From Snodgrassella alvi (lineage in GTDB: Bacteria > Pseudomonadota > Gammaproteobacteria > Burkholderiales > Neisseriaceae): a DNA stretch of 64,000 bases. The translations under genes were made by a program, and so were the position numbers. The notes under the pieces are model-generated. The model had not been told where the DNA came from. It saw only the letters and a list, made by a program, of their open reading frames with translations, and ran no database searches. Position 1 is the first letter of the stretch, and each line of letters begins with the position of its first letter. Below are positions 40,969 through 57,892 of this stretch, one piece after another. The stretch is from positions 1 to 64,000 of the forward strand of contig NZ_MEIK01000029.1 of NCBI RefSeq assembly GCF_002777855.1. Reading direction: 5' to 3'.

Positions 40969-41901
40969 ATGAGTACCAGCGAAATTGTTTTTCTTGACCG
41001 CGCCACCCTGCCAGACTTTCCATTCAAATTCGATTTTCCTCATCACATCACAACCTACAGCCACAGCAATTCAGATGAGGTAGCAGGCCGTATTGCTCAA
41101 GCGAATATTGTCATATCCAATAAAGTTCGTATAAACGCAGAAGCCATCAAAAATAGCCCGCAATTGAAATTGATTGCCGTACCCGCCACCGGACTGGATC
41201 ACATTGATCAACAGGCTGCTCAACAGCATAACGTTGGTATCCGAAATGTGCGCGGCTACGGTAATGACACCGTAGCCGAACATGCAATGATGCTGATTCT
41301 GGCACTAATGCGCCAATTACCGGCTTATCAGCGAGATGTAGCCGCTGGCTTATGGCAAAGTAGTCCATTTTTTTGCCATTTCGGCGCCCCAATCCGCGAC
41401 CTGAATGGTAAAACGCTGGGTATTTTCGGCAAAGGCGGTATCGGGCAGGCGCTGGCAGCACGAGCTCAAGCTTTCGGCATGCATGTGCTCTGGGGTGAAC
41501 ATAAAAATGCAAAAGATTGTCGTAATGGCTACACACCGTTTAATCAGCTGATACAGCAAGCAGATGTTATTTCTTTACATTGTCCGCTGAATGAGCAAAC
41601 TCGCAACATGATAGATGAAACAGAATTGAAATCAATGAAACCACAGGCCGTCCTGATTAATGTCGGGCGTGGTGGTCTAGTGGCAGAGCAGGCATTGGTA
41701 GCAGCGTTGAAATACGGGCAGTTGGGCGGAGCTGGCGTGGATGTACTAAGTGAAGAACCGCCTGTACATGGCAATCCCTTATTGAATGCCCGCCTGCCCA
41801 ATCTGATTATTACCCCGCATATGGCATGGGGCAGTGAAGAAGCTATACAGCGCATCTGCACCATGCTTGAAAATAATATCAATACATTTATGCGTGAATA
41901 A
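40969..41901 (+). CDS. D-2-hydroxyacid dehydrogenase (HprA/glycerate-dehydrogenase-like)
   Basis: 310 residues. NAD-dependent oxidoreductase of 2-hydroxyacids such as hydroxypyruvate/glycerate. LKLIAVPATGLDHID begins the substrate domain; TLGIFGKGGIGQALAARA is the Rossmann loop; INVGRGGLV and GAGVDVLSEEPP hold the catalytic Arg and Glu; ITPHMAWGSEEA has the catalytic His. Starts at 40969 with GGAGA five bases upstream. It converges with the DUF2827 cluster, six bases from its last gene. Confidence 0.9.
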   Translation: MSTSEIVFLDRATLPDFPFKFDFPHHITTYSHSNSDEVAGRIAQANIVISNKVRINAEAIKNSPQLKLIAVPATGLDHIDQQAAQQHNVGIRNVRGYGNDTVAEHAMMLILALMRQLPAYQRDVAAGLWQSSPFFCHFGAPIRDLNGKTLGIFGKGGIGQALAARAQAFGMHVLWGEHKNAKDCRNGYTPFNQLIQQADVISLHCPLNEQTRNMIDETELKSMKPQAVLINVGRGGLVAEQALVAALKYGQLGGAGVDVLSEEPPVHGNPLLNARLPNLIITPHMAWGSEEAIQRICTMLENNINTFMRE

Positions 41902-41907
41902 AAACTA

Positions 41908-43095
41908 TTAACGCAATGGTCTGGCCATTACTTCTGTCAGCAATGCAGAATAACTGGCCACCAGATCAGTATTATTTGGTAAAAAGCGAGCAATCTGTTG
42001 ACGCTGGTCATATACATAATGAGCAGCGTTATAAGCATGATCGCTCATTGCGGCAAATAATTGTTTTGCACCAGCTTCCACATCATTACCAGCATAATAA
42101 TAACCCAAATCTGAAATCAGCTCAGCATTGTGAATTAACGGATAACCTTGCCAACATACTTCCAAATAGAAATAGTTAAGCGGATTTTCCCATTGATGTG
42201 AAATTACTGCATCAGTATTGGTTGCCAGAAAAGTTGGTGTATCATAACGACCGAGAAAAACAGATTTTCGATTTTTCACAATATCCAGCTGATTCATCAA
42301 AGCAATGAATTCCATGGATTTTTGAGCCATCGGCAATGTATTGCATACCTGCAGAATATTAATAGCTTCCGGTTCGGAACGATAAGCCATTTCCGCAATC
42401 AAAATCGGATATAAACAGAACTTCACAACATCGATATTCGGTTCCATTACAGACAGGCGCCACCCCTTACGAGATACCGGTACCTGCCATAAGCCCTGAA
42501 ATGGCATTGCAGCGGTTTTCTGAATCAGAAATACCGGGCTCCAAACAAATGGCACCACACGCGCATCATGACGCCGGAATACTTCAAAATATGCCTTGCT
42601 GCAATTGGCTACCTGCGGAATCATCCAAATATCATCATAGCGTTGGTTGATAAATAGATTACCGCCACCCATATTGCGAGAGAATAAAACCGACTCCATC
42701 ATATGGATATATTCAAAGCCACAGCAGTAAGATATTAAGCGTACTCCTCTGTCTTTGATATAAGCCGTCTGCTCAGCACCAATTTGCCCACCCAGCTCAA
42801 TCAATACATCTATCTGATCTTTGGCCTCTAAGAAGCTCTTAGTTGGCCATATCTCCAAATCCCATGGCAAACTTGATGTAATTGGTACATCAGTTGTGTT
42901 TACCAACACCACAGAATCAACATTAGGACAATTTTTCAGTGCGTCAGCAAGAAAAACTGCGTTCTGCTTGATGCCATTATTCCACAATGTTTCTTTGGGG
43001 TGACTCAGACCAATGGTAATGCCAACACGCAAACGTGCTGGTGCAGCATCCTGGCCATGGCTGGAAATTAAATTCGGAGTATTAGATAAGTTCAT
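41908..43095 (-). CDS. DUF2827 protein, putative GT-B glycosyltransferase (third of three)
   Basis: 395 residues, cytoplasmic, no membrane helix. Shares with its two upstream paralogues the blocks WNNGIKQNAVFLADAL, MEPNIDVVKF, FLGRYDTPTF and AVISHQWENPLNYFYLEVCWQGYPLIHN, then DLGYYYAGNDVEAGAKQL. The last two resemble the nucleotide-sugar half of GT-B enzymes, with a Glu and a G-Y-P-L-I turn. Donor and acceptor are unknown. The N-terminal ~20 residues extend beyond the paralogues, so the true start may be further in. It follows the middle paralogue by 77 bases. Role in adhesin glycosylation is inference. Confidence 0.75.
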   Translation of the reverse strand: MNLSNTPNLISSHGQDAAPARLRVGITIGLSHPKETLWNNGIKQNAVFLADALKNCPNVDSVVLVNTTDVPITSSLPWDLEIWPTKSFLEAKDQIDVLIELGGQIGAEQTAYIKDRGVRLISYCCGFEYIHMMESVLFSRNMGGGNLFINQRYDDIWMIPQVANCSKAYFEVFRRHDARVVPFVWSPVFLIQKTAAMPFQGLWQVPVSRKGWRLSVMEPNIDVVKFCLYPILIAEMAYRSEPEAINILQVCNTLPMAQKSMEFIALMNQLDIVKNRKSVFLGRYDTPTFLATNTDAVISHQWENPLNYFYLEVCWQGYPLIHNAELISDLGYYYAGNDVEAGAKQLFAAMSDHAYNAAHYVYDQRQQIARFLPNNTDLVASYSALLTEVMARPLR

Positions 43096-43172
43096 AATTT
43101 CATTAGAAATGTTTGATTGCTGGCAGGTTTTATGTATACATTATACTAAAGTGTAAGCAAAATTAGTAAAAT

Positions 43173-44303
43173 CTAGGCTTTAAACAATGACTCAAGAGCA
43201 TCAGTATAACAGCGGACATTACTTTCTGCCTCAGGATCTAGTGTAGCCAGAAAAACTTTTGCACGCTCGCGGTAAGTACTCAAATTTTCATCATGCATTT
43301 TATAGGCTTCTGCCAATACTTTGCCACCCTCTTCACAATCAAAATCGTGATAGCGATAGCCACAGTCACCAATCAAGTGCGAATTATGAATTAGCGGGTA
43401 ACCACCATATAAAGCCTCATAGTAAATATAATTCTGAGCATTTTCCCATTGATGGCAAACAATTGCATCACAATAGATAGATACCACCTGCCAGATCGGG
43501 TAGCGGCCTTCAAACGAAGTCAAGCCATGGCGGACAATATCCAGACTTTGAGCAAACAGATTAAAAGCTGTCTGATCCTTCAAATTCATAGTATTGCACG
43601 CATAGATATGTTCGATGAAATTGGGGTTCAGTCGATGTGCATTTTCACATACCAGCATAGGAATATAACTGGTTTTCACCATACACATATTCGGCTCAAA
43701 CATACCAATACGCCAGCGATTGCGGCCCGGCTGGTATTCAAACTGCTCGCCTTCTGGTAATTTTTCACAAGCACGATTAAGAATAACCGGACTCCATAAA
43801 TGCGGCATGATCTTTACCGGCGTACGAAATGTACTGGCAAAATATGGTTTACAGGTTTTTTCATACTCTGGCAATGTCCATACTTCATCATAAGGCGCAC
43901 CGGTAATCAGCAAGGCAGGCGGCTTATCAAACAGCATACGCTCAATATCAATTACATAATCGTTACCCACGCGCATACTGACTACTTTTCCACCTTTGGC
44001 TTTGAACTCTATCATCCATTCTTTGGAAAGCTGGGCGCTCATCTCTATCATGACATCCAACTCATTCAAACCAGCGGCCATATCAATTACCGGTACTGGT
44101 GAATCCTGCAGAAAATTCATAGCATCCTGCATATCACCATCACCTGATCCAGCTACCAGAACCACGTTACTGACAATTGGAGATTTTTTTAACAACATTG
44201 CCAGAAACAGACAATTCTGGAAAATTCCATTTTCCCAAAGCGACTGAGCTCCTTTACGTACATAAATCGAAACACCTACACGAAGTGAAGACACGGACGA
44301 CAT
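43173..44303 (-). CDS. DUF2827 protein, putative GT-B glycosyltransferase (second of three)
   Basis: 376 residues. Same architecture: LRVGVSIYVRKGAQSLWENGIFQNCLFLAMLL, FEPNMCMVKTSYIPMLVCENAHR, FEGRYPIWQ, IVCHQWENAQNYIYYEALYGGYPLIHN, and GYRYHDFDCEEGGKVL. The GT-B-like Glu is in IYYEALYGGYPLIHN. Begins three bases after the stop of the first paralogue, so translation is coupled. Divergence from both neighbours is clear, so this looks like an older tandem family with separate roles rather than a recent copy. Confidence 0.78.
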   Translation of the reverse strand: MSSVSSLRVGVSIYVRKGAQSLWENGIFQNCLFLAMLLKKSPIVSNVVLVAGSGDGDMQDAMNFLQDSPVPVIDMAAGLNELDVMIEMSAQLSKEWMIEFKAKGGKVVSMRVGNDYVIDIERMLFDKPPALLITGAPYDEVWTLPEYEKTCKPYFASTFRTPVKIMPHLWSPVILNRACEKLPEGEQFEYQPGRNRWRIGMFEPNMCMVKTSYIPMLVCENAHRLNPNFIEHIYACNTMNLKDQTAFNLFAQSLDIVRHGLTSFEGRYPIWQVVSIYCDAIVCHQWENAQNYIYYEALYGGYPLIHNSHLIGDCGYRYHDFDCEEGGKVLAEAYKMHDENLSTYRERAKVFLATLDPEAESNVRCYTDALESLFKA

Positions 44304-44306
44304 GGG

Positions 44307-45452
44307 TTAACCTCTTAATAATTCTGGACGATCAGCACACAAATTAGATAATAGTTGTACATGGGCTTTAATATTGGCATCTGATAAAGGATCCGTTGCT
44401 TTAAAAAGTGCCTGTGAAGCTTGACGCTGACTACTCAGATTTTCTTCATGATGTAGCCAAGCCTGTATTATTTGTCTGCCACCTTCAAGTGCATCAAAAT
44501 CTGGATAATAATATCCAGCACCAAACTCTTTTAACCATGGAGTATTATGAATCAATGGATAATCTCCATACAGTACGTCCATATAAAGATTATTGTGGTC
44601 ATTACACCATTGATGTGAAATCACAGCATTGGCGTGTTGTGCCATAAAACCGACTATATCGTGACGGCCATAAAAACATGCCTTATGATCTTTAACAAGA
44701 TTCAGAGAATTGGCCAGATGTAGCATGGTTAAATGATCTTTCATGTGCAAAGTGTTAAGCACATGCATCATTTCAATTGATTGCGGTTCGTGACGATAAG
44801 CTTCATCACAAGCTAACATGGGAATAGAAGAAGTTTTAACAACTGAAATATTGGGCTCAAATATAGCCACACTCAGAGGTGTTTTTGCCCCATCATGCAC
44901 ATTGCTGTGCCAGCCGTAATTAAGACCTTGTTCACTAATTTCCTGTTTGCGTCTGGAAACAAACATTGGATCCCACAAATAAGGCGTAATGTATATCGGG
45001 CAACGATACATTGTCCGCAGCATGGGAATATAAGCTTTGTCTTTTGGCAAAAGCCATACTTCATCACAACGATCTACTGGCGGAAAACTAGTTGGTTTTT
45101 CAAACACATTATATTCTGACAACCCCACATAAGGCTGGCCAACACAATAAAACACCACCTTTTTACCACGAGCACGCTGCAAGGCTAACCATTGTGGAGA
45201 TAGCGCACCAGCCAGTTCAATAATGACATCAAAAGCATCTATAGCTTCCTGTTCTGACATCAATCGCAGATCAAACAGATTCAAATCAATTTGTTCAGCC
45301 ATACGGGGCTGACCACCAACATTAATTAAATCCACTGATTTAACAAAAGGTATAGCCTTCAGGCTTTGAACCAAAAATATAACATTCTGACCCATACCAT
45401 TTTCCCAGATGTTCTGGTTGGCATGAGTAATAACAGAAATACCGATGCGCAT
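44307..45452 (-). CDS. DUF2827 protein, putative GT-B glycosyltransferase (first of three)
   Basis: 381 residues from the ATG at 45452 (MRIGISVITHANQNIWENGMGQN); the open frame extends 21 codons upstream without homology to the paralogues. Shared blocks: IFEPNISVVKTSSIPMLACDEAYR, CFYGRHDIVGF, VISHQWCNDHNNLYMDVLYGDYPLIHN. Here the usual Trp-Glu is Trp-Cys and the Glu of the GT-B-like site is Asp (YMDVLYGDYP), so its activity may differ. 97 bases after the giant adhesin on the same strand. Confidence 0.78.
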   Translation of the reverse strand: MRIGISVITHANQNIWENGMGQNVIFLVQSLKAIPFVKSVDLINVGGQPRMAEQIDLNLFDLRLMSEQEAIDAFDVIIELAGALSPQWLALQRARGKKVVFYCVGQPYVGLSEYNVFEKPTSFPPVDRCDEVWLLPKDKAYIPMLRTMYRCPIYITPYLWDPMFVSRRKQEISEQGLNYGWHSNVHDGAKTPLSVAIFEPNISVVKTSSIPMLACDEAYRHEPQSIEMMHVLNTLHMKDHLTMLHLANSLNLVKDHKACFYGRHDIVGFMAQHANAVISHQWCNDHNNLYMDVLYGDYPLIHNTPWLKEFGAGYYYPDFDALEGGRQIIQAWLHHEENLSSQRQASQALFKATDPLSDANIKAHVQLLSNLCADRPELLRG

Positions 45453-45500
45453 ATTATCCCGTATTCTTATTAAAAATACTGTCAATGATGAATAAATAAG

Positions 45501-45531
45501 ACTTCCGGACTTCACACGGAAGTCCAGAAGT
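45501..45531. other. Hairpin between adhesin and DUF2827 genes
   Basis: Nested inverted repeats (ACTTC...GAAGT outside, GGACTTC...GAAGTCC inside) form a stem just past the adhesin stop. No T-run follows on the minus strand, so it is more likely an mRNA-stabilising structure or partial terminator than a full stop. That would make the DUF2827 genes a lower-expressed part of the adhesin operon. Confidence 0.5.
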
Positions 45532-45549
45532 CTGTTTAGTCAGGATTAA

Positions 45550-48500
45550 TTACCACTTAAAGCCAAGTACTGAATTGAAAGCAACTTCTTTACCAGTAGT
45601 GGAAACACCTGCACCCCACGTAACTTTGCCGTTTTTGCTGGCTGCCTTATAGTTTACACCAACGGCACCATAGCTACGATATGCACCTACCCCAATACCG
45701 ACGGTCTGCTCACCGGAACTCAGTGAAGGCAAATAAGCCCCAGACAGCGCCATGGCCATGGCTGTACCTGAATAAGCTCTACGCTCAACATGGTGAATAT
45801 TATCATTCAACTGATTAACATATTCACTAACTCTGCTAACCTGATTATCCACACCTTTAAGTTGAGCCACATTCACAGCATCAGTGTCAGCAGTACCAGC
45901 TGCAACACCAGTTATCTGACGGTATACACCCTTAGATGCATCACCCACAGATACCGCTCCTTCCGTACTTCTTGTGGCACGGATTGCTGCTGCCTGCTGC
46001 GACGTTGCAGTTACTGGAATATATCCTTCTTGTCCAGCAGCTACACTCGCAACTGATCCAGCTCCTAGTGCTATACCTCCAGTCTGTTTCACCTGAGCAT
46101 TGCTACCCAGAGCCACACCATTAGCTGCGGGAGCACTGGCTGAATCACCTATCGCAATAGCTGATGTACCACTAGCCATTGCTGCTCCGCCCTCTGCAAT
46201 TGAATTTGCACCTTGGGCAATTGATCCAGCTTTAGCAGAGTTGACCTTCACATATTTCGTACCATAATTCTCCAGATTTTGTAGTGCATCAGCGACATTA
46301 TCTGCTGATACATTACCACCTGTTGGTGTAGAAATATCATACTTAGGTGGATTGATACTTCCTGCTGAATTTCGTGAAGTACCAAGAGCAGAAGCTATCG
46401 ATGCAATCTGACTAGCAACAATTGTGCTAACTGATGTAGACAGACTATTCAGCGAATCATCAGAAACATTACTGGTTGGCAGGCTATTAACCATTGTAGA
46501 CAAATTATTATAATCTTGTCTTACAGCCCATAGCTGACCAGCATTAATAGCATCTAAAGATCCTTTGTCCATGTTACCGTCAGCCACATTGGCAATACGC
46601 TGTGCCGTAGCACTGCCATGACTAGCATCATATGCACTACCATTCCACAGTAAGGCATTTTGAGTCAGGTTGGTAATGTTAGTAATAATATTACCTGTGG
46701 ATAACTCACTTAAAGCACTGTTTAATGAAGACAAGCTAGTGCTGGTACCTGTAGAAAGGCTGGTCACATCATTTTTCAGTAAGTATAGCTGTCCACCATT
46801 AATTGCATCATGTGATCCCTGATCAACCAAACCATCAGCTAAATTGATAACCTTGCCATAAGTAGCAGCTCGAGTGAGACTATTTGTCTTTCCAGCATCA
46901 AATCCACCTTTATCCTCATTCCATTGCAGACTCTTATCCTTCAGCTGTTTTACATCTTTCTGAGTCAGATCATAGCTGGTAGACAGACTGCTTAAAGCTG
47001 TACTAGTGCTAGAAGTTAGTTTGTTCAGGCTATCGCTTGTTGTACTCATACTGCGTGACAGACTCTCGTATCCGGTAGACATAGAGCTACTGATACTATT
47101 GATACCTGAAATTACAGTTGATGAAACTACGGTTGACAGACTGCTCAGACCAGTAGCAGTAGAACTAGACAAAGCATACAGCTGGCTACCGTTTACCGCA
47201 TCGGTAGAATCTACTGTCACGCTACCAGCTGCTACATTAGTAATACGCTGAGCTGTACCACTACCATGGCCAGCATCATAAGCACCCAGTGTGCTATTCC
47301 ATTGCAAGGCATTTTGCTGCAGGGTGGTCAGGTTTTGATTGGTGCTACTCAGACTGGATGCCAGACTAGTCAGACCAGATGAAGTACTGCTGCTCAGGCT
47401 GCTTAAGCCTGTGCTGGCACTAGCCAATCCTAATTGAGTGGTGCTGGTCAACGCATCCACGCGATCATTGACTGTAGTCAAAGCTGCTGATGAGGCACTG
47501 CTCAAGCTACTTAATCCGGTACTAGTACTACTCAATCCTGCTTGAGTCAGAGTAGACAGGCTGTACATCTGAGTACCGTTGATAGCATCACTTGAAGTAA
47601 TATTGATATTTCCAGCTGCAATACCGGTCAGTCTTTGATCTTTACCCTCACGGCTGGCATCGAAATTACCACTTATCCTGTTTCTCAGCAAAGCATTCTG
47701 CTGTAATGCAGTCACATTACTATTGGTTTCAATTAAACCGGTTGACAGACTGCTTACATTTTTCGTTACCGTACTGAGACTGTCATTAACAATAGTAGAT
47801 AAGCTACCCAGCTGATTTTTTGTCACCTCATTCAGATTAGTAGACAGGCTGCTTAGTCCGGTTGAAGTAGAGCTAGACAGACTGAACAACTGACCGCCAT
47901 TGACTACATCGGTAGAATCCACTGAAACCCGGCCAGCCGCTACATTGGTAATAAGCTGAGACGCACCATTTCTACCGGCATCATAAGCACTACCATTCCA
48001 TTGCAGAGCATTTTGCTGCAGGGTAGTCAGGTTCTGATTTGTGCTACTCAGACTGGATGCCAGACTAGTCAGACCGGATGAAGTACTGCTGCTCAGGCTG
48101 CTTAAGCCTGTGCTGGCACTAGTCAGTCCTAATTGAGTGGTGCTGGTCAGCGTATCCACGCGATCATTGACAGCAGTCAAAGCTGCTGATGAAGCACTAC
48201 TTAAGCTGCTCAGCCCCGTACTGCTACTGCTTAGTCCTGCCTGTGTCAGAGTAGACAGGCTGTACATCTGAGCGCCATTGATGGCATCACTTGAAGTGAG
48301 GCTTATATCGCCACCAACAATTCCGGTCAGTCTTTGAGCACGATTACTACGTATTGCATCATATGCGTTACTAGTACTATTCCACTGTAATGCATTTTGC
48401 TGCAAGGCTGCTACATTAGTATTGGTTTCTCTCAGACCCGTAGACAGGCTGCCGATATTATCGGTTACCGTACTGAGACTGTTTGTCACTATAGTAGACA

Positions 48501-51500
48501 AACTACCCAGCTGATTTTTTGTTACCTCATTCAGATTAGTAGACAAGCTGCTTAGTCCGGTTGAGGTGGAATTAGATAAGGTATACAGCTGGCTGCCATT
48601 TACTGCATCAGTAGAGTCTGCAGCAAGACGTCCGGCACTAATATTGGTAATGCGTTGTGCAGTACCATCACGACCAGCATCATAAAAACTACCATTCCAT
48701 TGTAAAGCAGTTGTCTGCAGGTTATTCATGCTCTGATTGATACTGCTTAAGCTGCCCGTCAAACCAGCAAGAGCTGATGATGTACTACTACTCAGCGTGC
48801 TCAGATTGCTATTGGTAATGTTCAAACCTGCCGCAGTTACCGTAGACAGACTATAGAATTGTCCACCGTTAATAGCTTCGGTAGAGCCAACACTTACTGC
48901 ACCAGCATCGATACCACTTAGTACTTTGGCTTCTCCATTACGGCTGGCATCGTACACACCCTTGCCTGCATTCCACAGCAGCGCATTAGCCTGTAATGAA
49001 GATACACTAGCATTAGCTGCCTGTAATCCTTTATCCAAAATCTGTAGATTGGATGAAGTCGTACTGGTTATGCTGCTTAGACTGTTGTTGATGCCAGTAA
49101 TACTGTTTGTCGTTGTAACAGACAACTGATTCAGCGCATCTTTAGTGCTACTCAGGCTTGTTGTAAGTGTACTCAGGCTAGTGCCATAGGCAGTAGAGAG
49201 TGTATTTAACACTAAATTGGTAGAGCTCAGACTTTGATTCAAAGTATTGACACTGGCTGTTGTACTGGTGGACAAGTTATACATCTGAGCACCATTGACA
49301 GCATCAGTAGAATCTGCAGCTATGGAGCCTACAGCTACACTGGTAATCAGCTGAGCTGTATTGGTACCGTGATCCGCACTATAAGCCCCTTTAGCGCTGT
49401 TCCATTGCAGCGCATCTCTTTGCAATGCAGCAACATTGTTGGTAGTAGAACTCAAGCCAGTAGAAAGACTATCTATATTGTTGGTGATACTGCTGAGACT
49501 ATTGGTAACAACGGTAGACAGACTGCCCAGCTGATTCTTGCTCATCTCACTCAGGTTACTTGCAAGACTACTCAAACCAGTTGAGGTAGAACTAGAAAGA
49601 CTGAACAATTGACCGCCGTTAATCATATCAGTGGAATTTGCAGCCACACTAGCAGCACCGCTAACATTGGTAATACGCTGTGGAGTGCCATTTTTGCCGG
49701 CATCATAAACACTACCATTCCACTGCAAAGTATTAGCCTGCAAGGTAGTTACACGAGCTGTAGCTGTACGCAGATTGGTATCCAATCTACTCAAATTGTC
49801 AGTTGTAGTGTCAGCAAAGCTCTGCAAATTACTATCAACAGTAGAAATACTGCTAACCAGTGCATCTGATAAACCGGTGAACGCTGTATTAGCTGTGTTT
49901 TCCATACTGGTAGACAAGCTGTACAACTGGGCACCATTCACAGCATCGTTTGAACCTGATGTTATCAAACCAGTAGACACATTTGTAATTTTTTGAGCAG
50001 TACCCGTTCCATGATCAGCATTATACGCAGCTGCATAATCATTCCATTGAAGTGCATTTTGTTTCAATGAGCCTGCATCGTGACTAACTGTAGACAGAGA
50101 AGTTATCAGGGTGCCTGCTGAAGTTGAAATACTTTGCGACAAGCTACTTATACCAGATTCAGCCACCGTGGATAGACTACTCAGGCTATTTGCGGCATCA
50201 GCAGACAGGCTATTCAGGCCAGTATTCGTGCTGTTGGATAAACTGGTAATACTATTGGACAGAGTATCAGAAAGAGTTGATAAGCTATTTGCAGATGCAC
50301 CTGACAGATTAATAGTACTGCTTAGAATACTGTCTGACAAAGAACTGAGTTGGGTAAAGTATTTATCAGAAATACCCGTTAATGAAGATTGTATTGTACT
50401 TAAGCTGGAAGACATTAAATTGGAGGAACTGGTCAGATTTGCATCAGACACCGTGGACAGGCTGTACAGCTGTGCACCAATAACAGCATCTGACGAGCTT
50501 TCTCCTACCTGACCGGCGGCAACCTGAGTAATTTTAGCTCTGGCACCAGTTGCAGAACCGGCATCATAAGCACTAATACTCGCATCCCATTGTAACGCAT
50601 TCTGCTGCAATGTGCTTACTCCGGTATTAATACCCGTTATACCTGCTGACAGACTGCTTATACCAATATCAACAAGACTGCTTAAAGTCGTTGAAAAACT
50701 TTCAAAACGCTTATTAATATCACTGTTCAAAGTGTCAAAACTATTTTCGGTACTATACAGCTGTCCTGCTGTGATGGCATCTGTTGAACCATCATAAATA
50801 TCAGCTTTAGCAACATTGGTTATACGGCTATTTTTATCATTACGACTTGCATCGTAGGCTCCGTCTTTCCACTGCAAGGCATTCGTTTTGAGAGTACCCA
50901 AACTTCCGTCGGCCGTACTTAAAGCTGAAGAAATACTTGAAGACAGGCTAGTTATATTGTTTTCAATAGTACTTCTGCTTTGAGTCAGTTTGGCCAAATT
51001 AGAACCGGTTACCTGATCCAAAGAAGTTGATAAACTACTGATACCGGCTTCCATACTGCCCGATACATCGGCTAATTTATTGTTTAAAACAGAAATACTG
51101 TTGTTTGTACTATATAGCTGTGCACCGATTATCGCATCAGACGATCCCTCTTTCACATTACCTGAAAATACGTGTGTCAGTGTATTTTTAGCATTTGCAA
51201 TGCCATGGCTAGCATCATATGCTCCTGCACCTGATTCATCTAAACGCTTCCATTGTAAAGCGTCTTTCTGCAAATCAGATACACCATTATTAATCACTCC
51301 TAATTGTGTTCCTGCTGCTGTGGAAAGACTACTAACTTTAGTATTCGTTTGAGCAAGCAACCCAGTTAAAGTAGAGATATTTTTATCAGATATAGTACTC
51401 AGAGCACTGGATAAACTTCCAATGCCACTTTTAACCTCATTAGCCAGATCATTGATGGCAGTATTGGTGTTATACAGCTGATTCCCAGTAATCGCGTCTT

Positions 51501-54500
51501 TTGAGCCCTTAGCTAAAGATCCATCTGCAGCATTGGTGATCCGGTTTTTACCATTTACTACACCATGACTGGCATCATATGCTCCATTTTTCCATTGCAA
51601 TGCATTCTGCAGAAGGGCAGGGAGTTTGCCGTTAATTTCTTGAAGGCGTTGCTCTGTTGTAGTAGAAAGGCTTTCCAGTCCAGAAAAAGAAGAATTCTCT
51701 AATGCTGTAGATAGACTATTTAGACTACTAGAAGTTGAACTTGTAAAATCCGATACTTTGTTATCAAACGAAGAAGATAATGCACTAATCTGACTGTTAG
51801 TGCTATACAACTGAGCACCAATTACCGCATCACTGGACTTAGCCTGTAAATCAGCTTTATCCACATTTATAATCTTTCGTTTTATACCTTGAGTACCACC
51901 GGCATCATAAGCGCTGCCATTCCATTGCAATGCATTCTGTTTAATAGTACTTAGACTAGCATTTACAGGAACCAGACTGGTATCAATGGTTGAGGCAAAA
52001 GTATTCAAACCACTAGAAAGTGACCTATCCATGGTGGTTGAAACACTAGCCAGACTTCCAGATAAAGAACCAGACAAAGTCTGAAGCTGCGACGTTAAAT
52101 CTGAAGTCAGCCCAGAGATTTTGGTATTTGTCATTGACAACTGGTCACCAATTACCGCATCGGATGATTTATCATTCACATTGCCTTGTGCAACGTTAAT
52201 AATTTTATTTTTACCGCCAACTTGGCCATGGCTGGCATCATAAGAACTACCATTCCATTGCAATACAGTCTGTTTTAGTGCATTAATATTGGAATTAGCT
52301 GTGCCAATATCGGTATTAATTTTATCTGACAGGCTGCTGATACTACCTGAAATAGTATTATTCAGACTGGTATTAGTAGCAGCCATAGCGGCATCTAATT
52401 TTGTGGATAACTCAGCTGGTTTTGTCACCACATCAGTATTCAATGTACTGATACTTGTGCTGGTGGTGTATAACTGCCCCATGGTTACAGCATCTGTTGA
52501 ATTAGATTGCACACTGCCATCAGCTACATGTGTAATTTTACCTCTACTGCTGCCATGGCTAGCATCATATGCATCACCATTCCAGAGCAAAACATTCTGC
52601 TTTAGCGTAGCAATTTTATTATTGGTTTCAGTAAGTCCTGACTGAATAGAACTAGACAATTCTTTAATTTTTTGTGCTGATAATCCATTCAATCCAGTGC
52701 TTAAAGATTGTATTCCTGTGGAAGCAGATGTAGAAAACGAAAAAATCTGGCCAGCATTGATTGCATCTGTAGAACCAGCTGCTACATAACCATTGGCCAC
52801 ATTAGTAATTTTAGTATTACCGTCAATATCATGAGTAGCACTAAATGCCTTATCAGTTTCATTCCACAGCAGAGCATTATTCTTCAAAGTACTGATACTT
52901 GAATTCAGTCCATTAACCAGAACCATGCCACTTTGCAAGGTATTCACTGCTGTTTGATTTATATTACCAGCCAAGGTGGATAAACCGCTGGAAATAGTGG
53001 TTGAAACTGTATCCAAAGTTGAATTGGTAGTATATAACTGCTTAGCATTAATAGCATCGGTTGAAGCACTATTTAAAGTAGCATCAGCAACACCTGTAAT
53101 TTTCTGCTCTTTTTCTACTCTTTTAGCATTGTATTTGCCATCTGTATACTGGAGCATTTGTTGTTGCAAAGAGGAAATACTACTATTAATTTCTCCCACC
53201 GTACTTAAAGCTGATGTGGTCAGCGTATTTACTCGTGTATCTATTGAAGCATTCAAATCATAATACTGGCTGCCGACAACGGCATCAGTTGAAGTTGCAC
53301 TGGTAATGTCACCTGCACTGACATGTGTAATTTTTGCATCTGCACCACCATGACTGGCACTATATGCTGCGTCATCATCGTTCCATTGCAAAGCATCTTC
53401 TTGCAATGCAGCAACTTTACTGCCAGTTGTAGCCAGGCTCGTAGACAACTTATCAAGACTCTGGCCAACAGACAAAGAAGCCGAAACAGAAAAACTACCA
53501 AATTGTGTATTTACAGTACTAGATAAATTAGTGATCGCAGTATTGGTACTGAATAACTGGCCACCATTAACCATATCTGTTGAATTAGGACTGCTTATAT
53601 CACCAGGCGCAACACCGGTGATTTTTTGCGCTGTACCATCATGAGTGGCATGAAAATAGTCGTCTTCACCACGCAATATGGTACTTTCCTGCAAACCACT
53701 AATAGCAGTAGATGCAGAATCTGACAATATTTGTAAATAATTACTTAATGTACTCAGACTTGAATTAGCCGAAGTTGTTAAACTGTTTAAGTTATTTGTT
53801 ATTGCAGTTGAAAGATTAGTAAGGCTATTGGCAGTGTCTGTTGTCAAGCTGCTGCGTTTACTACTTATATTGAGCCAGCCAGTGGAAGCAGATACAGAGA
53901 GACTCGCTAGATTGGAGTTTACAGTGTATAACTGGCCACCTGTAATCGCATCATCAGAATCCGCAATAACATCACCTTCTGCAGCATTTGAGATTTTTTG
54001 CGGCGTCTTGTTTTTATCTTCAACAAATGCCCCTGTAGTGGCATCAAATAAAAGAGCATTTCGTGTAATCTGGCTTAATCCAGTCGAAATTGAAGTAGAC
54101 AGACCATCTAATGACTTATTCGAACTTGATAATGCTATATTTGTATCGGTTACAAATTTATCAATTTTAAGATTGTTGTCTGTAAGGCTATCCTGAATAT
54201 CACTATCCAGCTTATTAAGCTTCATATTGGTGGCACGCAGCTGTGCACCCGTTACAGCATCAGTAGAATCTGCGCTGTCAATACTACCTGCTTCTACATT
54301 CGTTATTTTCTTTTCATTACCCGCATCAAATGCATCCGAACCATTCCATTTGAGTATAGCTGCACGTAAATTTTTTATACCTGTATCAGTAGTTGTAGTA
54401 AAGCTATTAATATTGCTATCAATTGTTGATATCGAAGTATTAACGACAGATACTAATTTAGAAGTACCTTCGTTAAGGTTACTGATATTAGTATAAATAG

Positions 54501-56577
54501 CAGTTGAGATAGAACTCAGCATAGAATTGGTACTGAATAACTGGCCACTATTAACCATATCAGTGGAGTCTTCAGTAAGACGAGCATCTGTCAGATTTGT
54601 TATTTTTTTAGTTTCTCTGCCATCGTCCGAACCGACATTATAAACACCATTTTTAAATACTAAAGTACTGGTTTGTAATGCACCAATAGAGCTAGATGTA
54701 GAGGTACTTAAAGAAGAAATATTGGTATTTATTTGTGCTAATTTATCATCAGCATCGCCAGAAGCCTTTGTAATATTTTGATTAAGATTAGTTATAACAT
54801 CAGATGTTGAAATAGAAGCACTATTAATCTTAGTTTTTACCACAGATACATTAGTATCTAACACTGTCGAAAGACTGGATGCACTGCCAGAGATAGATGA
54901 ATACAAGCTCTTTAGCTGCGCCACATTGACAGCATCAGTATCCAGCGTACCGGCAGCCAAATCCGTAATTTGACGGGTAATATTCTTAGCAGAGTTACCT
55001 ACTGCTACCGCCCCGGTAGTGCTTTTCCATGTGGGCGTACTAAGGGAAGGATCAGTAGCAGCCACATTGGTATCTGGATTATAGCCAGAAACATTACCAG
55101 CTGTATTAGCTATTGAATCCGATCCCAAAGCTACGGAACCATCTGCCATAGCTTTGGCATTTGTACCTACAGCAATGGCACCAGTACCATTCACAATAGT
55201 ATTGTTACCGAGTGCCAAGCCGTTATCTGTGGTAACAGAAGCATTGTTACCGATTATGGTTGCTCCAATACCGCTGCTATCAGTACTACCAACTGTATTG
55301 CCACTACCAATTACATGAACATCATAAATAGCATTGATAATGGTGTTTTGGTTACCAAATATAGCCGTATTGGCTGCAGTAATATCGTTATTTGGGCTTG
55401 TACTTTTATTACTATTACCCAAAGATAAAGTGTTGTTCGCATTAATAAAGGTATAGCCATCTGGACCAGATGCTTCCGTTCCATCCTCTTTTTTGTATGC
55501 AGTAGGTGTGGTAGAGCCACCTATGGCAATGGATTGTTCTCCATAAACCACATTACCATTACCAATGCTAATACCTTGTTTACCAGTAGCAATAGTGTCA
55601 TTACCGATGGCCACTGAAGAGTCGCCACTTGCCTGAGATTTCACCCCAACAGCAACTGCTCCATCTATAGAAGCCTGTGACATCAAACCAAGTGCCACAC
55701 TTCCTACGCCATCTGAATTAGCAACGGAACCTAAAGCTACGCTAGAAACTCCAGTAGCTTGCGATGAGATACCAATCGCATTGGAAGCTCGTCCACCAGC
55801 CAAAGCAAAATTACCTACAGCCTGTGCCCCGCCGCCAGTATTAAACGCACCAGTCCCGAATGATAATGAATGATTACCAGAAGCATAGGAACCACATCCC
55901 ATAACAGCTGAATTTACACCAAAGGCACTCCCCATACCATTTTGATATCCTCCTGTAGCATATTGATCCATATAACCTGATATAGGAGCTTTGGAAGTAG
56001 CAGTCCCATTTGAACCATTAGTGGGGTCAGTTGTCCATCCTTGGCCACCCCAATTTTCAACATGGTTAGTTGTACCATACGGATTGAGGGTTCTACCACT
56101 AACAGCTCCTCTGGTACCGGTTACTGTATAATTTTGAGCAAACCGCAAATATTCTTCCATTGCTGAAATAGCAGGAAGCCCTGAGGGACCTTGATTACGC
56201 TGAGTACCGTTTATATCTCGTCCTGCAACCCTATCATAACCACAAAAATCACTATTATCTCCCATTATCTGAACAGCATTAATGCTTGCTGTATTAAGGT
56301 ATCCAGATACTCTATTATCAGAACCTCGAGTCGGGATTTCACCCACTATTTGCGCACGGCCTGCAGCATACGCAATAGGCATCCCTATAGTCATATTTAC
56401 AACGGAAGCGATTAATCCGATTTTAAATACTTTAGAACCTAATTTACTTAATACTGTAGATACAACAGGCATCTGACAGGAAACTGTATTTGCTTTGGTT
56501 TTACTTTTAGCTAACTCAGAAGCAGCCACCCAAGTTTGAGTGGATTCGTTCCATATCGCACGATATATTTTATTCAA
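45550..56577 (-). CDS. Giant trimeric autotransporter adhesin (YadA/Hia family)
   Basis: 3675 residues. Starts at TTG (56577) eight bases after AGGAG; MNKIYRAIWNESTQTWVAASE is the extended signal-peptide (ESPR) start, cleaved near residue 72 (AYA). Residues ~210-535 are a YadA-type head of repeated SxAxG turns with Cys112 and Cys228 nearby. A neck at ~535-556 follows. The stalk (~560-3440) has 25 modules of the form ALQWN...YDA...KITNV...DAVNGxQLYSLS joined by Ser/Thr-rich coiled coils. A second small head (~3448-3550), neck, coiled coil and a 76-residue YadA anchor ending GFKW close it. BAM-assembled, surface-exposed, probably host adhesion. Three putative glycosyltransferases follow downstream. 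Confidence 0.97.
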   Translation of the reverse strand: MNKIYRAIWNESTQTWVAASELAKSKTKANTVSCQMPVVSTVLSKLGSKVFKIGLIASVVNMTIGMPIAYAAGRAQIVGEIPTRGSDNRVSGYLNTASINAVQIMGDNSDFCGYDRVAGRDINGTQRNQGPSGLPAISAMEEYLRFAQNYTVTGTRGAVSGRTLNPYGTTNHVENWGGQGWTTDPTNGSNGTATSKAPISGYMDQYATGGYQNGMGSAFGVNSAVMGCGSYASGNHSLSFGTGAFNTGGGAQAVGNFALAGGRASNAIGISSQATGVSSVALGSVANSDGVGSVALGLMSQASIDGAVAVGVKSQASGDSSVAIGNDTIATGKQGISIGNGNVVYGEQSIAIGGSTTPTAYKKEDGTEASGPDGYTFINANNTLSLGNSNKSTSPNNDITAANTAIFGNQNTIINAIYDVHVIGSGNTVGSTDSSGIGATIIGNNASVTTDNGLALGNNTIVNGTGAIAVGTNAKAMADGSVALGSDSIANTAGNVSGYNPDTNVAATDPSLSTPTWKSTTGAVAVGNSAKNITRQITDLAAGTLDTDAVNVAQLKSLYSSISGSASSLSTVLDTNVSVVKTKINSASISTSDVITNLNQNITKASGDADDKLAQINTNISSLSTSTSSSIGALQTSTLVFKNGVYNVGSDDGRETKKITNLTDARLTEDSTDMVNSGQLFSTNSMLSSISTAIYTNISNLNEGTSKLVSVVNTSISTIDSNINSFTTTTDTGIKNLRAAILKWNGSDAFDAGNEKKITNVEAGSIDSADSTDAVTGAQLRATNMKLNKLDSDIQDSLTDNNLKIDKFVTDTNIALSSSNKSLDGLSTSISTGLSQITRNALLFDATTGAFVEDKNKTPQKISNAAEGDVIADSDDAITGGQLYTVNSNLASLSVSASTGWLNISSKRSSLTTDTANSLTNLSTAITNNLNSLTTSANSSLSTLSNYLQILSDSASTAISGLQESTILRGEDDYFHATHDGTAQKITGVAPGDISSPNSTDMVNGGQLFSTNTAITNLSSTVNTQFGSFSVSASLSVGQSLDKLSTSLATTGSKVAALQEDALQWNDDDAAYSASHGGADAKITHVSAGDITSATSTDAVVGSQYYDLNASIDTRVNTLTTSALSTVGEINSSISSLQQQMLQYTDGKYNAKRVEKEQKITGVADATLNSASTDAINAKQLYTTNSTLDTVSTTISSGLSTLAGNINQTAVNTLQSGMVLVNGLNSSISTLKNNALLWNETDKAFSATHDIDGNTKITNVANGYVAAGSTDAINAGQIFSFSTSASTGIQSLSTGLNGLSAQKIKELSSSIQSGLTETNNKIATLKQNVLLWNGDAYDASHGSSRGKITHVADGSVQSNSTDAVTMGQLYTTSTSISTLNTDVVTKPAELSTKLDAAMAATNTSLNNTISGSISSLSDKINTDIGTANSNINALKQTVLQWNGSSYDASHGQVGGKNKIINVAQGNVNDKSSDAVIGDQLSMTNTKISGLTSDLTSQLQTLSGSLSGSLASVSTTMDRSLSSGLNTFASTIDTSLVPVNASLSTIKQNALQWNGSAYDAGGTQGIKRKIINVDKADLQAKSSDAVIGAQLYSTNSQISALSSSFDNKVSDFTSSTSSSLNSLSTALENSSFSGLESLSTTTEQRLQEINGKLPALLQNALQWKNGAYDASHGVVNGKNRITNAADGSLAKGSKDAITGNQLYNTNTAINDLANEVKSGIGSLSSALSTISDKNISTLTGLLAQTNTKVSSLSTAAGTQLGVINNGVSDLQKDALQWKRLDESGAGAYDASHGIANAKNTLTHVFSGNVKEGSSDAIIGAQLYSTNNSISVLNNKLADVSGSMEAGISSLSTSLDQVTGSNLAKLTQSRSTIENNITSLSSSISSALSTADGSLGTLKTNALQWKDGAYDASRNDKNSRITNVAKADIYDGSTDAITAGQLYSTENSFDTLNSDINKRFESFSTTLSSLVDIGISSLSAGITGINTGVSTLQQNALQWDASISAYDAGSATGARAKITQVAAGQVGESSSDAVIGAQLYSLSTVSDANLTSSSNLMSSSLSTIQSSLTGISDKYFTQLSSLSDSILSSTINLSGASANSLSTLSDTLSNSITSLSNSTNTGLNSLSADAANSLSSLSTVAESGISSLSQSISTSAGTLITSLSTVSHDAGSLKQNALQWNDYAAAYNADHGTGTAQKITNVSTGLITSGSNDAVNGAQLYSLSTSMENTANTAFTGLSDALVSSISTVDSNLQSFADTTTDNLSRLDTNLRTATARVTTLQANTLQWNGSVYDAGKNGTPQRITNVSGAASVAANSTDMINGGQLFSLSSSTSTGLSSLASNLSEMSKNQLGSLSTVVTNSLSSITNNIDSLSTGLSSTTNNVAALQRDALQWNSAKGAYSADHGTNTAQLITSVAVGSIAADSTDAVNGAQMYNLSTSTTASVNTLNQSLSSTNLVLNTLSTAYGTSLSTLTTSLSSTKDALNQLSVTTTNSITGINNSLSSITSTTSSNLQILDKGLQAANASVSSLQANALLWNAGKGVYDASRNGEAKVLSGIDAGAVSVGSTEAINGGQFYSLSTVTAAGLNITNSNLSTLSSSTSSALAGLTGSLSSINQSMNNLQTTALQWNGSFYDAGRDGTAQRITNISAGRLAADSTDAVNGSQLYTLSNSTSTGLSSLSTNLNEVTKNQLGSLSTIVTNSLSTVTDNIGSLSTGLRETNTNVAALQQNALQWNSTSNAYDAIRSNRAQRLTGIVGGDISLTSSDAINGAQMYSLSTLTQAGLSSSSTGLSSLSSASSAALTAVNDRVDTLTSTTQLGLTSASTGLSSLSSSTSSGLTSLASSLSSTNQNLTTLQQNALQWNGSAYDAGRNGASQLITNVAAGRVSVDSTDVVNGGQLFSLSSSTSTGLSSLSTNLNEVTKNQLGSLSTIVNDSLSTVTKNVSSLSTGLIETNSNVTALQQNALLRNRISGNFDASREGKDQRLTGIAAGNINITSSDAINGTQMYSLSTLTQAGLSSTSTGLSSLSSASSAALTTVNDRVDALTSTTQLGLASASTGLSSLSSSTSSGLTSLASSLSSTNQNLTTLQQNALQWNSTLGAYDAGHGSGTAQRITNVAAGSVTVDSTDAVNGSQLYALSSSTATGLSSLSTVVSSTVISGINSISSSMSTGYESLSRSMSTTSDSLNKLTSSTSTALSSLSTSYDLTQKDVKQLKDKSLQWNEDKGGFDAGKTNSLTRAATYGKVINLADGLVDQGSHDAINGGQLYLLKNDVTSLSTGTSTSLSSLNSALSELSTGNIITNITNLTQNALLWNGSAYDASHGSATAQRIANVADGNMDKGSLDAINAGQLWAVRQDYNNLSTMVNSLPTSNVSDDSLNSLSTSVSTIVASQIASIASALGTSRNSAGSINPPKYDISTPTGGNVSADNVADALQNLENYGTKYVKVNSAKAGSIAQGANSIAEGGAAMASGTSAIAIGDSASAPAANGVALGSNAQVKQTGGIALGAGSVASVAAGQEGYIPVTATSQQAAAIRATRSTEGAVSVGDASKGVYRQITGVAAGTADTDAVNVAQLKGVDNQVSRVSEYVNQLNDNIHHVERRAYSGTAMAMALSGAYLPSLSSGEQTVGIGVGAYRSYGAVGVNYKAASKNGKVTWGAGVSTTGKEVAFNSVLGFKW
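47290..48560. repeat. Tandem 699-bp duplication inside the adhesin stalk
   Basis: Two long in-frame copies lie 699 bp apart (233 residues), for example ATTTTGCTGC at 47311 and again at 48010. The encoded units both contain TSTGLSSLSTNLNEVTKNQL, NALQWN/LLRN modules, SSDAINGxQMYSLSTLTQAG and NDRVDxLTSTTQLGL. They differ at scattered positions, so the duplication is recent but not brand new. Shorter related modules occur along the whole stalk. Confidence 0.85.
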
Positions 56578-57341
56578 TTGGTTTACTCCTAATTTTTTAA
56601 AATCATGCGTTTATCAAAAATATCTTGATAACTTAAAGAAAGGTTAAAATTAAGTTAAATTATTAAGTAATATAACATAAATGTTTGTATAAATGTAGTT
56701 AATCAGAGATAGTTCCGAATAGAACCTATATGGAAAAAACGCCTACTTCTTTTATATTAAATTAATAAGATACAATAAGTTATATGATTTTATTAGCTCT
56801 GCAATGGTTTTACATAGCTAATACATTGTTTGTTTATCTGTTATTGAATGTCTTATAAAAGCGACAATCTTTAATAAAATTCTTTTTTGGCATTGTTAAT
56901 TTTTATTGATTCTTGCCTTAGAATACATATTCTTAACAATTAATTGGTTTATGTATATTTATAAGGGTTTTAAAATTTTTTATTTGGTAAGTTATTAATC
57001 AGGTAAAAAAGCAATATTCAAAGCAAGTAATCTTTTATGTTTTAGTTAATAAAATTTTACTTTATCCTGCATCCAACTTTTACGTTGCTGTATTTTACTT
57101 TTTGTATGCTTTGATTAGCTTATAAAAAATTTCACCTTATCAGACTTCATCCAAACATAACCAATAGTTTATTAAGAATTCAATAAAGGCGACTTTCAGA
57201 ACAATCAATATCTGCTGAGGTATTTTATTAAGAACAAGCATGTGACCTAGCTTATTTTTTTATCAACTGATGCAAATACTTTAGTTTTTAGATTAGGCAG
57301 ATACATTTTTAATATTACAAATAAATACTGAATATATTCTT
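56578..57341. other. Long AT-rich region upstream of the adhesin
   Basis: About 760 bases with no gene. The adhesin ribosome site TTAGGAG lies at the left end. A -10-like TATATT occurs near 56670 on the minus strand without a convincing -35. The unusual length suggests a long 5' leader or several regulatory sites, but none can be named. Confidence 0.5.
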
Positions 57342-57415
57342 TGGAGCGGATAACGGGACTCGAACCCGTCCGAACTGCTTGGGAAGCAGTTATGCTACCA
57401 CTACATCATATCCGC
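57342..57415 (-). tRNA. tRNA-Gly (anticodon CCC)
   Basis: 74 nt with encoded CCA. Acceptor GCGGATA/TATCCGC, anticodon stem ACTGC/GCAGT around TTCCCAA, giving CCC (complement of 57381-57383), and T arm ACGGG-TTCGAGT-CCCGT. Reads GGG codons. No clear promoter or terminator was seen next to it. Confidence 0.97.
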
Positions 57416-57892
57416 AAAAATTTTTTACAGCTTTATTAACTCACATACTTCAGATCAGTGTAATACAATTTATACTCTTTTATCGTCAGGAAATCATCAA
57501 CATTTATATTAGGCTTTATGACTAGTATTTTCTATATATACAAATAAGTCCAGATAAATTCCATTTGTAAATAATTAATCAATTAGGTAAGCATAGCATT
57601 TATACTTTTAGTTCATATTTATTCGCTGATAGCCAAATACCAAAATTTTATACATTTATGTATCTACTAAAAATTAAAGTTTATTGTAGACCAATTTTAT
57701 ATGTGTAATACATAATAAATTATATACATTCGCTAATTTATAAAAAGCAATAAGCTTAAAATTTAAGCATACTAACTACCTATTATATTTTGTTCATATG
57801 AATTTTTTTGTATTCTGAAAATAAAATTCAATCGTTTGTAATCCATCCTAACAAGCCTGAAGCAAGGATTAGCTTACTTTTCAACAACTATA
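57416..57892. other. AT-rich intergenic region, no gene seen
   Basis: Nearly 480 bases between tRNA-Gly and purD, both on the minus strand. It must hold the tRNA promoter and the purD transcript end. No convincing promoter, terminator hairpin or RNA gene was found. Confidence 0.5.

Follow-up and report, generated by a model that had tools for sequence, protein, structure and literature searches.

What three adjacent genes of the DUF2827 family do directly downstream of a giant adhesin gene is the question raised by a 64,000-base stretch of Snodgrassella alvi DNA (the window), which forms the first 64000 bases of a 284-kb contig in a genome of 2.34 Mb. An earlier sequence-only reading had proposed that the adhesin is a trimeric autotransporter and that the three gene products are a dedicated set of enzymes that glycosylate its stalk one after another. 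Its description of the genes, the DUF2827 family, the conserved sequence blocks and the serine/threonine (Ser/Thr) count held up on analysis, and its statement that no strong terminator lies between adhesin and enzyme genes did not. Its interpretation was borne out for the GT-B fold, the linkage to trimeric autotransporter adhesins (TAAs) and the connection with Ser/Thr, but not for the missing terminator or for three enzymes acting in sequence. We consider it probable that DUF2827 proteins are soluble GT-B glycosyltransferases (GTs) that O-glycosylate Ser/Thr-rich TAA stalks before export, with SLST-type targets and with the members of two clades, A and B, as the core.

The Adhesin and the DUF2827 Genes

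The adhesin gene, P0001 (45550..56577, minus strand), is a giant open reading frame (ORF) of 3675 amino acids (aa) with a TTG start. Pfam models identified an ESPR at residues 2-32 (56482..56574, minus strand; PF13018, E 7.1e-13), three stretches of YadA_head and 23 stretches of YadA_stalk. The YadA-type C-terminal membrane anchor (residues 3601-3675; 45553..45777, minus strand) was not reported by Pfam PF03895 at E 0.001 and was recognized with a profile made from the C-termini of 100 related TAAs (E 1.1e-22). With an ESPR, YadA heads, a coiled stalk and a YadA-type anchor, P0001 is a type Vc trimeric autotransporter. The stalk region (residues 540-3380; 46438..54960, minus strand) contains 30.7% Ser+Thr, as do residues 541-3380, and 33 of the protein's 34 SLST motifs start within it. 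SLST is the most frequent 4-mer of P0001, with ~1 copy expected. A density of 20 Ser/Thr per 46 residues, which the sequence-only reading had counted by hand in one stretch, is reached in 440 of the 3630 46-residue segments of the protein, with a maximum of 26.

Three ORFs of 402, 376 and 395 aa come after P0001, all on the minus strand: P0002 (44307..45515, with a GTG start at 45515 or, more likely, an ATG near 45452), P0003 (43173..44303) and P0004 (41908..43095). Each matches DUF2827 (PF10933) over positions 1-362 of 362, with 364.7, 475 and 454.3 bits, respectively, at a curated cut-off of 25 bits, confirming three homologous genes downstream of the adhesin on the same strand. The gaps of 97, 3 and 77 bases noted previously fit when P0002 starts at the inner ATG; with the GTG as start, P0001 and P0002 would be 34 bases apart. 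P0003 shares 34% identity with P0002 and 33% with P0004, and a search of the whole window genome found no further DUF2827 genes. The closest named DUF2827 loci are those of other Snodgrassella (L008-L011 and L087; L and G numbers denote loci and genomes), with 87-91% identity.

Predicted Fold of the DUF2827 Proteins

The predicted structures of P0002 and P0003, two of the three proteins, have the GT-B fold, in that both models consist of two Rossmann-like domains matching solved GT-B enzymes along the chain. The sequence-only reading had staked its proposal on this comparison, and both modeled proteins came through it as GT-B. The nearest folds include BshA, HepE, WaaG and PimA, and Foldseek matched P0003 to GtfA (4pqg), among others, at E 3.8e-7. 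The family is placed by fold comparison only; searches for solved relatives by sequence gave nothing convincing (best E 0.22 with P0003 alone and 0.89 with a 95-row profile). NCBIfam likewise gave no match above cut-off, its single weak match being to P0004 (19.6 bits vs. a cut-off of 450). The conserved blocks named in the earlier reading are present, and nine residues are invariant in a 95-sequence alignment (W23, N25, G26, Q29, E203, N205, K210, H306 and N307, in P0003 numbering). Conservation across all three clades described below extends over E203, N205, K210, R267, H284, N288, E/D296, H306 and N307. Judged by hydropathy means (the highest 19-residue means are 1.42, 1.70 and 1.25) and by the two models, none of the three proteins has a clear membrane helix.

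Phylogeny, Gene Order and Linkage to TAAs

For comparison we used the best 80 loci of 271 confirmed DUF2827 relatives, taken from one scan of genome contigs. By title these are mostly from Snodgrassella, Caballeronia, Paraburkholderia, Variovorax and other Betaproteobacteria. The family is uncommon, with 6 of 300 genomes of the order and 1 of 369 of the class above the DUF2827 cut-off, the window genome being counted in both. A midpoint-rooted tree of 217 proteins resolved three groups that contain one window gene each, namely clade A (P0002; 80 members, support 0.998), clade B (P0003; 82 members, support only 0.11) and clade C (P0004; 55 members, support 1.0). When only copies longer than 330 aa were counted (214 of 223 retained), 42 loci had the gene order A-B-C and 27 had A-B, 6 of the latter with an extra fragment. 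Clade C was found upstream on the opposite strand in 6 loci, and in four of these six (L014, L045, L054 and L064) it lies past the adhesin. Clades A and B stand side by side in 79 of the 80 loci, a contig end cutting A in the remaining one. Because A and B occur together so consistently and a full-length third copy is absent from 27 of the 80 loci in the available DNA, we take the A+B pair as the core and P0004 as an optional third enzyme; the notion that three enzymes act in sequence is left without support.

A permissive sequence search with pieces of P0001 found a TAA-like ORF in the available DNA of 68 of the 80 loci, and a TAA end was recognized by eye in three more (L048, L061, L085). 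A stricter test applied Pfam models to 37 whole genomes of these loci, chosen for carrying DUF2827 resembling that of the window, and returned 149 anchors; grouping 150 listed of 158 DUF2827 matches gave 56 clusters. Among the matches listed, 43 of the 56 clusters had an anchor within 20 kb and 30 had one within 1 kb, and 45 anchors were linked where ~1.5 were expected. A sample of 300 genomes of the order, not chosen for DUF2827, showed a TAA in 6/6 genomes with DUF2827 vs. 23/294 without it (Fisher 5e-7). Leaving the window genome aside, four of the other five (G478, G620, G645, G650) carry DUF2827 and a TAA on one contig within ~2.5 kb; G375 does not. Among the matches listed for the genus of G650, DUF2827 occurs in 62 of 65 genomes and a TAA in 63, and two of the three genomes without DUF2827 also have no TAA. 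In the genomes examined, then, DUF2827 genes usually lie near TAA genes, which was the second outcome on which the earlier proposal had been made to depend.

Ser/Thr Content and the SLST Motif

TAAs were read in the frame of their anchor match. Of 45 linked TAAs, 42 were read, three being left out with open frames below 250 aa; of 104 unlinked TAAs, four were left out for such frames and 58 of the other 100 were drawn at random. Ser+Thr fractions of the passenger ranged from 0.16 to 0.56 in the linked TAAs, with a median of 0.405, and from 0.06 to 0.45 in the unlinked TAAs from these genomes, with a median of 0.203 (Mann-Whitney p 3e-11), and linked exceeded unlinked in 17 of the 19 genomes holding both. 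A TAA was scored SLST-positive when it had 5 or more copies of the motif and exceeded twice the expected number. By this measure 39/42 linked and 13/58 unlinked TAAs were positive, as were 5/9 TAAs read from other DUF2827 genomes of the order sample and three of the four TAAs of the window genome (34, 40, 15 and 0 copies). Where DUF2827 clusters have no anchor nearby (G375, G683, G693, G695), a TAA elsewhere in the genome has a Ser+Thr fraction of 0.42-0.53 and 35 to 89 SLST copies.

Genomes without DUF2827 gave 0 positives among 42 TAAs. The order sample holds 23 such genomes with an anchor, of which 21 were read, for part of their anchors (G499 and G514 were left out); two of the three anchors of G716 were read in addition. 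Among these negatives are two TAAs of G716, which belongs to the genus of G650, and six of G484, whose family code is that of G620 and G650. Four more DUF2827-negative loci, missed by the anchor profile and read by their longest frames, had no SLST in the adhesin frame, so that all 46 TAAs read from DUF2827-negative genomes have at most one copy each. The more general pattern [LIV]-Ser-Thr was enriched in 41/42 linked TAAs vs. 0/23 negatives counted. SSLS, STGL and TGLS likewise track linkage and are part of the same repeats as SLST; STGL, TGLS and GLSS each occur in 1/42 negatives. The first SLST counts were not blind, because the motif had been noticed in the data; it was later re-derived as the top 4-mer of P0001 alone, and the other groups were scored with it afterwards. 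Hydrophobic residues in SLST stalks are spaced at 7, 11, 14, 18 and 25, a coiled-coil spacing. Comparison of linked, unlinked and DUF2827-negative TAAs thus strengthens the earlier suggestion that Ser/Thr richness is connected with these genes.

The window genome encodes a second giant TAA, L265 (G000:C29), of 3694 aa on the plus strand beyond the window, with its anchor at 77731-77895, 40 SLST copies and a start ~10 kb past that of P0001. Since the window trio are the sole DUF2827 genes of the genome, L265 is a likely substrate in trans. A cassette dedicated to P0001 alone is therefore too narrow a description, the genome having another Ser/Thr- and SLST-rich adhesin.

Proposed Mechanism and Alternative Explanations

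The analysis shows the domains, the GT-B fold of two models, the conserved sites, the linkage and the tracking of Ser/Thr and SLST with DUF2827; catalysis, the donor sugar, O-linkage, the site of action, the enzyme order and the role of the glycan are inferred, along the following lines. The soluble DUF2827 enzymes would act in the cytoplasm on newly made adhesin before its export, because the models are single GT-B units with no clear membrane helix; other adhesin glycosyltransferases act in the cytoplasm. Their targets would be stalks rich in hydrophobic-Ser-Thr, most often SLST, in which, to judge from the hydrophobic spacing, the Leu would lie in the core of the coiled coil, with the Ser and Thr after it pointing outward. 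Clades A and B would make up the core pair, perhaps as an initiating complex of the GtfA/GtfB kind, and clade C, where present, would add a further sugar. The glycans might form a mucin-like sleeve on the stalk, possibly hundreds of nanometres long. We also think it fairly likely, with less assurance than for the enzyme assignment itself, that DUF2827 A+B, with or without C, is a Gram-negative counterpart of serine-rich-repeat adhesin glycosylation, which would use SLST sequons, act in cis and in trans on several TAAs of a genome, range from Snodgrassella to Paraburkholderia, Caballeronia and Variovorax, and lay a mucin-like sleeve over a folded coiled coil.

A number of observations weigh against glycosylation of the stalks. 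Among the matches listed, 13 of the 56 clusters have no anchor within 20 kb, although one of these (G665, L008) has a TAA directly upstream by sequence search, its anchor having been missed by Pfam as in the window. The linked adhesin of the window is not richer than its unlinked neighbor (P0001, Ser/Thr 0.287 and 34 SLST; L265, 0.299 and 40). Snodgrassella adhesins are only moderately Ser/Thr-rich: the linked TAA of G666 has a fraction of only 0.21 and 12 SLST, and while three window-genome TAAs, at 0.26-0.30, exceed the TAAs read from DUF2827-negative genomes of family code f1 (at most 0.23), the fourth, at 0.19, does not. In the linked TAA of G478 Ser/Thr reach 44%, yet SLST occurs only once, beside many VSTS. 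Frames read from G672, G668 and G673 include no TAA with at least 5 SLST (another frame piece at the G668 locus, L014, has 8). G669, to judge by its locus title a single-cell assembly, and G678 carry DUF2827 together with a TAA that has no SLST. The SLST pattern is thereby followed in 29 of 32 genomes, or 29 of 34 when G669 and G678 are counted. Ser/Thr-rich stalk modules and DUF2827 could also be co-inherited without any modification, and the p-values given above overstate the independent evidence because relatives share descent and repeats share an origin. In a separate observation, one DUF2827 match of G678 (L032) has an in-frame stop, and the sole TAA found there is the one without SLST; this state may represent decay of the system.

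The catalytic site raises a further point on the same side. The glutamate pair of the EX7E motif is characteristic of the CAZy family GT4. Compared by sequence position, no GT chain having been found by sequence profile, the corresponding positions read N288/D296 in clade A and N288/E296 in the other two clades, Glu being present in 94% of clade C, and because of this reading catalysis is not assured. DUF2827 proteins might accordingly be catalytically dead GT-B chaperones or sensors of long Ser/Thr-rich coiled-coil adhesins in the cytoplasm, and GtfB of serine-rich-repeat adhesins is indeed a non-catalytic GT-B partner. Such a role would suit the Asp at 296 in every clade A protein, the variable residue 287 of that clade and the Asn288 found in nearly all members where the first EX7E glutamate would be. 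Clade B, on the other hand, retains Glu287, Asn288 and Glu296 in at least 98% of its members, and to find polar residues so strictly conserved across all three clades is more what one expects of enzymes; we regard dead enzymes as very improbable. If the enzymes are active, they might instead build or decorate another surface glycan (lipopolysaccharide, capsule or exopolysaccharide), the adhesin being only co-regulated or co-inherited. The nearest folds, BshA, HepE, WaaG and PimA, belong to enzymes with small-molecule, lipid or polysaccharide acceptors, and a 600-aa protein near one cassette (L051:2136-3935) has Glyco_transf_17 and DUF5672 matches. Another glycan, however, leaves unexplained why Ser/Thr and SLST in TAAs track DUF2827 across and within genomes, the cases in trans included. 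The scanned neighbors in the window are also unlike a polysaccharide cluster: purD adjoins P0001, a 2-hydroxyacid dehydrogenase gene lies on the opposite strand beyond the enzyme genes, and mnmE and sulphite/nitrite reductase were the others. No polysaccharide cluster was seen among these direct neighbors and 15 entries from other loci, a full survey not having been made, and such a cluster is not favored; that the enzymes serve another surface glycan is in our view improbable.

An explanation we find unlikely, though it deserves some weight, is that SLST is a structural coiled-coil module spreading with TAA genes and that DUF2827 modifies TAAs elsewhere, for instance on the head. The coiled-coil spacing of the SLST stalks speaks for this, and stalk repeats can expand by recombination, for which reason the motif copies are not independent. 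Against a purely structural need, the 46 TAAs of DUF2827-negative genomes manage without SLST repeats. TAAs with at least 5 SLST also occur under four family codes (f1, f190, f204 and f213), whereas two other k-mers of the window adhesin, ALQW and AYDA, are each found in only 2 of the 42 linked TAAs.

Relation to Known Glycosylation Systems

GtfA/GtfB of Gram-positive bacteria glycosylates serine-rich-repeat adhesins, which are cell-wall-anchored and exported by accessory Sec. The DUF2827 loci resemble that system in pairing GT-B proteins (A+B in 79/80 loci) with a giant Ser/Thr-rich repeat adhesin (linked-TAA median 0.405). They differ in that a search with the DUF2827 profile found no GtfA/GtfB chain by sequence. 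We do not file them as members, because what they would glycosylate is a type Vc adhesin of Gram-negative bacteria, with an ESPR and a YadA-type anchor. SdgA/SdgB glycosylate the SD-repeat adhesins of staphylococci; here the motif is SD, on a Gram-positive surface protein, and the DUF2827 profile has no sequence match to these enzymes. The heptosyltransferases Aah/TibC, which act on AIDA-I/TibA, come close in being Gram-negative, encoded beside an autotransporter gene and active in the cytoplasm on repeats, but they belong to another enzyme family and their substrate is a monomeric type Va protein, whereas the DUF2827-linked adhesins counted here carry YadA-type trimeric anchors. HMW1C/NGT is likewise cytoplasmic and serves large secreted adhesins; its transfer is N-linked, to Asn sequons, while DUF2827-linked stalks stand out by their Ser/Thr.

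The kind of system is thus known from GtfA/GtfB, SdgA/SdgB and Aah/TibC; what would be new is the family of enzymes, the class of substrate and the motif. The idea of a glycosylated Ser/Thr-rich TAA is already published, because the Burkholderia cenocepacia TAA BCAM2418 has extensive serine-rich repeats for which O-linked glycosylation was suggested by its authors (PMC7142374); unlike the present proposal, that work names no transferase in the text consulted. In a full-text literature search DUF2827 appeared, in the portions available, in a cysteine database only, and adding adhesin terms brought no further hit. Neither the enzyme family, nor its linkage to TAAs, nor the SLST motif was found in the literature searched on TAA glycosylation and Snodgrassella adhesins. 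If correct, our proposal would tell what a so far uncharacterized Pfam family does and supply a substrate motif that can be tested. Bacterial adhesin glycosylation would gain a new family of enzymes, trimeric stalks as a new class of substrate, and a candidate sequon. The proposal would also provide Ser/Thr-rich TAAs like BCAM2418 (PMC7142374) with an enzyme, and in Snodgrassella, whose colonization factors have reportedly been addressed by transposon work, it would make a possible bee-gut colonization factor directly testable.

A Hairpin Between the Adhesin and Clade A Genes

The earlier statement that no strong terminator separates the adhesin from the enzyme genes is wrong. A 15-pair hairpin with a T-rich tail, TATTTATT, lies between P0001 and P0002 (45499..45533, minus strand) and is a candidate terminator or attenuator. 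Its stem is the longest among 14 terminator-like sites in 41700-57900 (11.5 expected from shuffles), and a comparable hairpin occupies the same place in all five Snodgrassella loci examined (L008-L011, L087). We therefore reject, for the adhesin/clade A junction, an operon deduced from the absence of a terminator; the hairpin may be an attenuator that passes a fraction of transcripts into the enzyme genes. Counting terminator-like sites over the loci is uninformative, the junction before clade A (33/79 loci vs. 8.4 expected) being inseparable from the control junction before clade B (28/80 vs. 5.3 expected). Strong terminator-like hairpins between adhesin and clade A were also seen in Variovorax/Comamonas loci, including L024 and L060, with a sequence unrelated to that of the window hairpin.

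Other Genes at DUF2827 Loci

Two Snodgrassella-type loci, L015 and L012, have A and B only and no TAA match in the available DNA; in L015 an unclassified 533-aa ORF lies upstream. L073 and L076, with no TAA match nearby, have a hybrid histidine kinase with receiver and Hpt domains directly 3′ of clade C (L073:8549-11872, L076:13734-17063). A ~210-aa protein (L028:11086-11760 and relatives) is encoded in 37 of the 80 loci, a number of which have it between B and C, and in 0/8 Snodgrassella/Neisseriaceae loci. It has, by eye, a signal-peptide-like start and gave no Pfam match in the two members scanned; it is possibly a periplasmic partner of the adhesin. The 600-aa protein of L051 stands downstream of clade B and the ~210-aa protein and is a possible extra glycosyltransferase. 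Relatives of a DUF4019 protein (PF13211 in the two scanned; L056:11120-11695, L052:11720-12214) occur in 8 of the 80 loci and lie between B and C in six of these.
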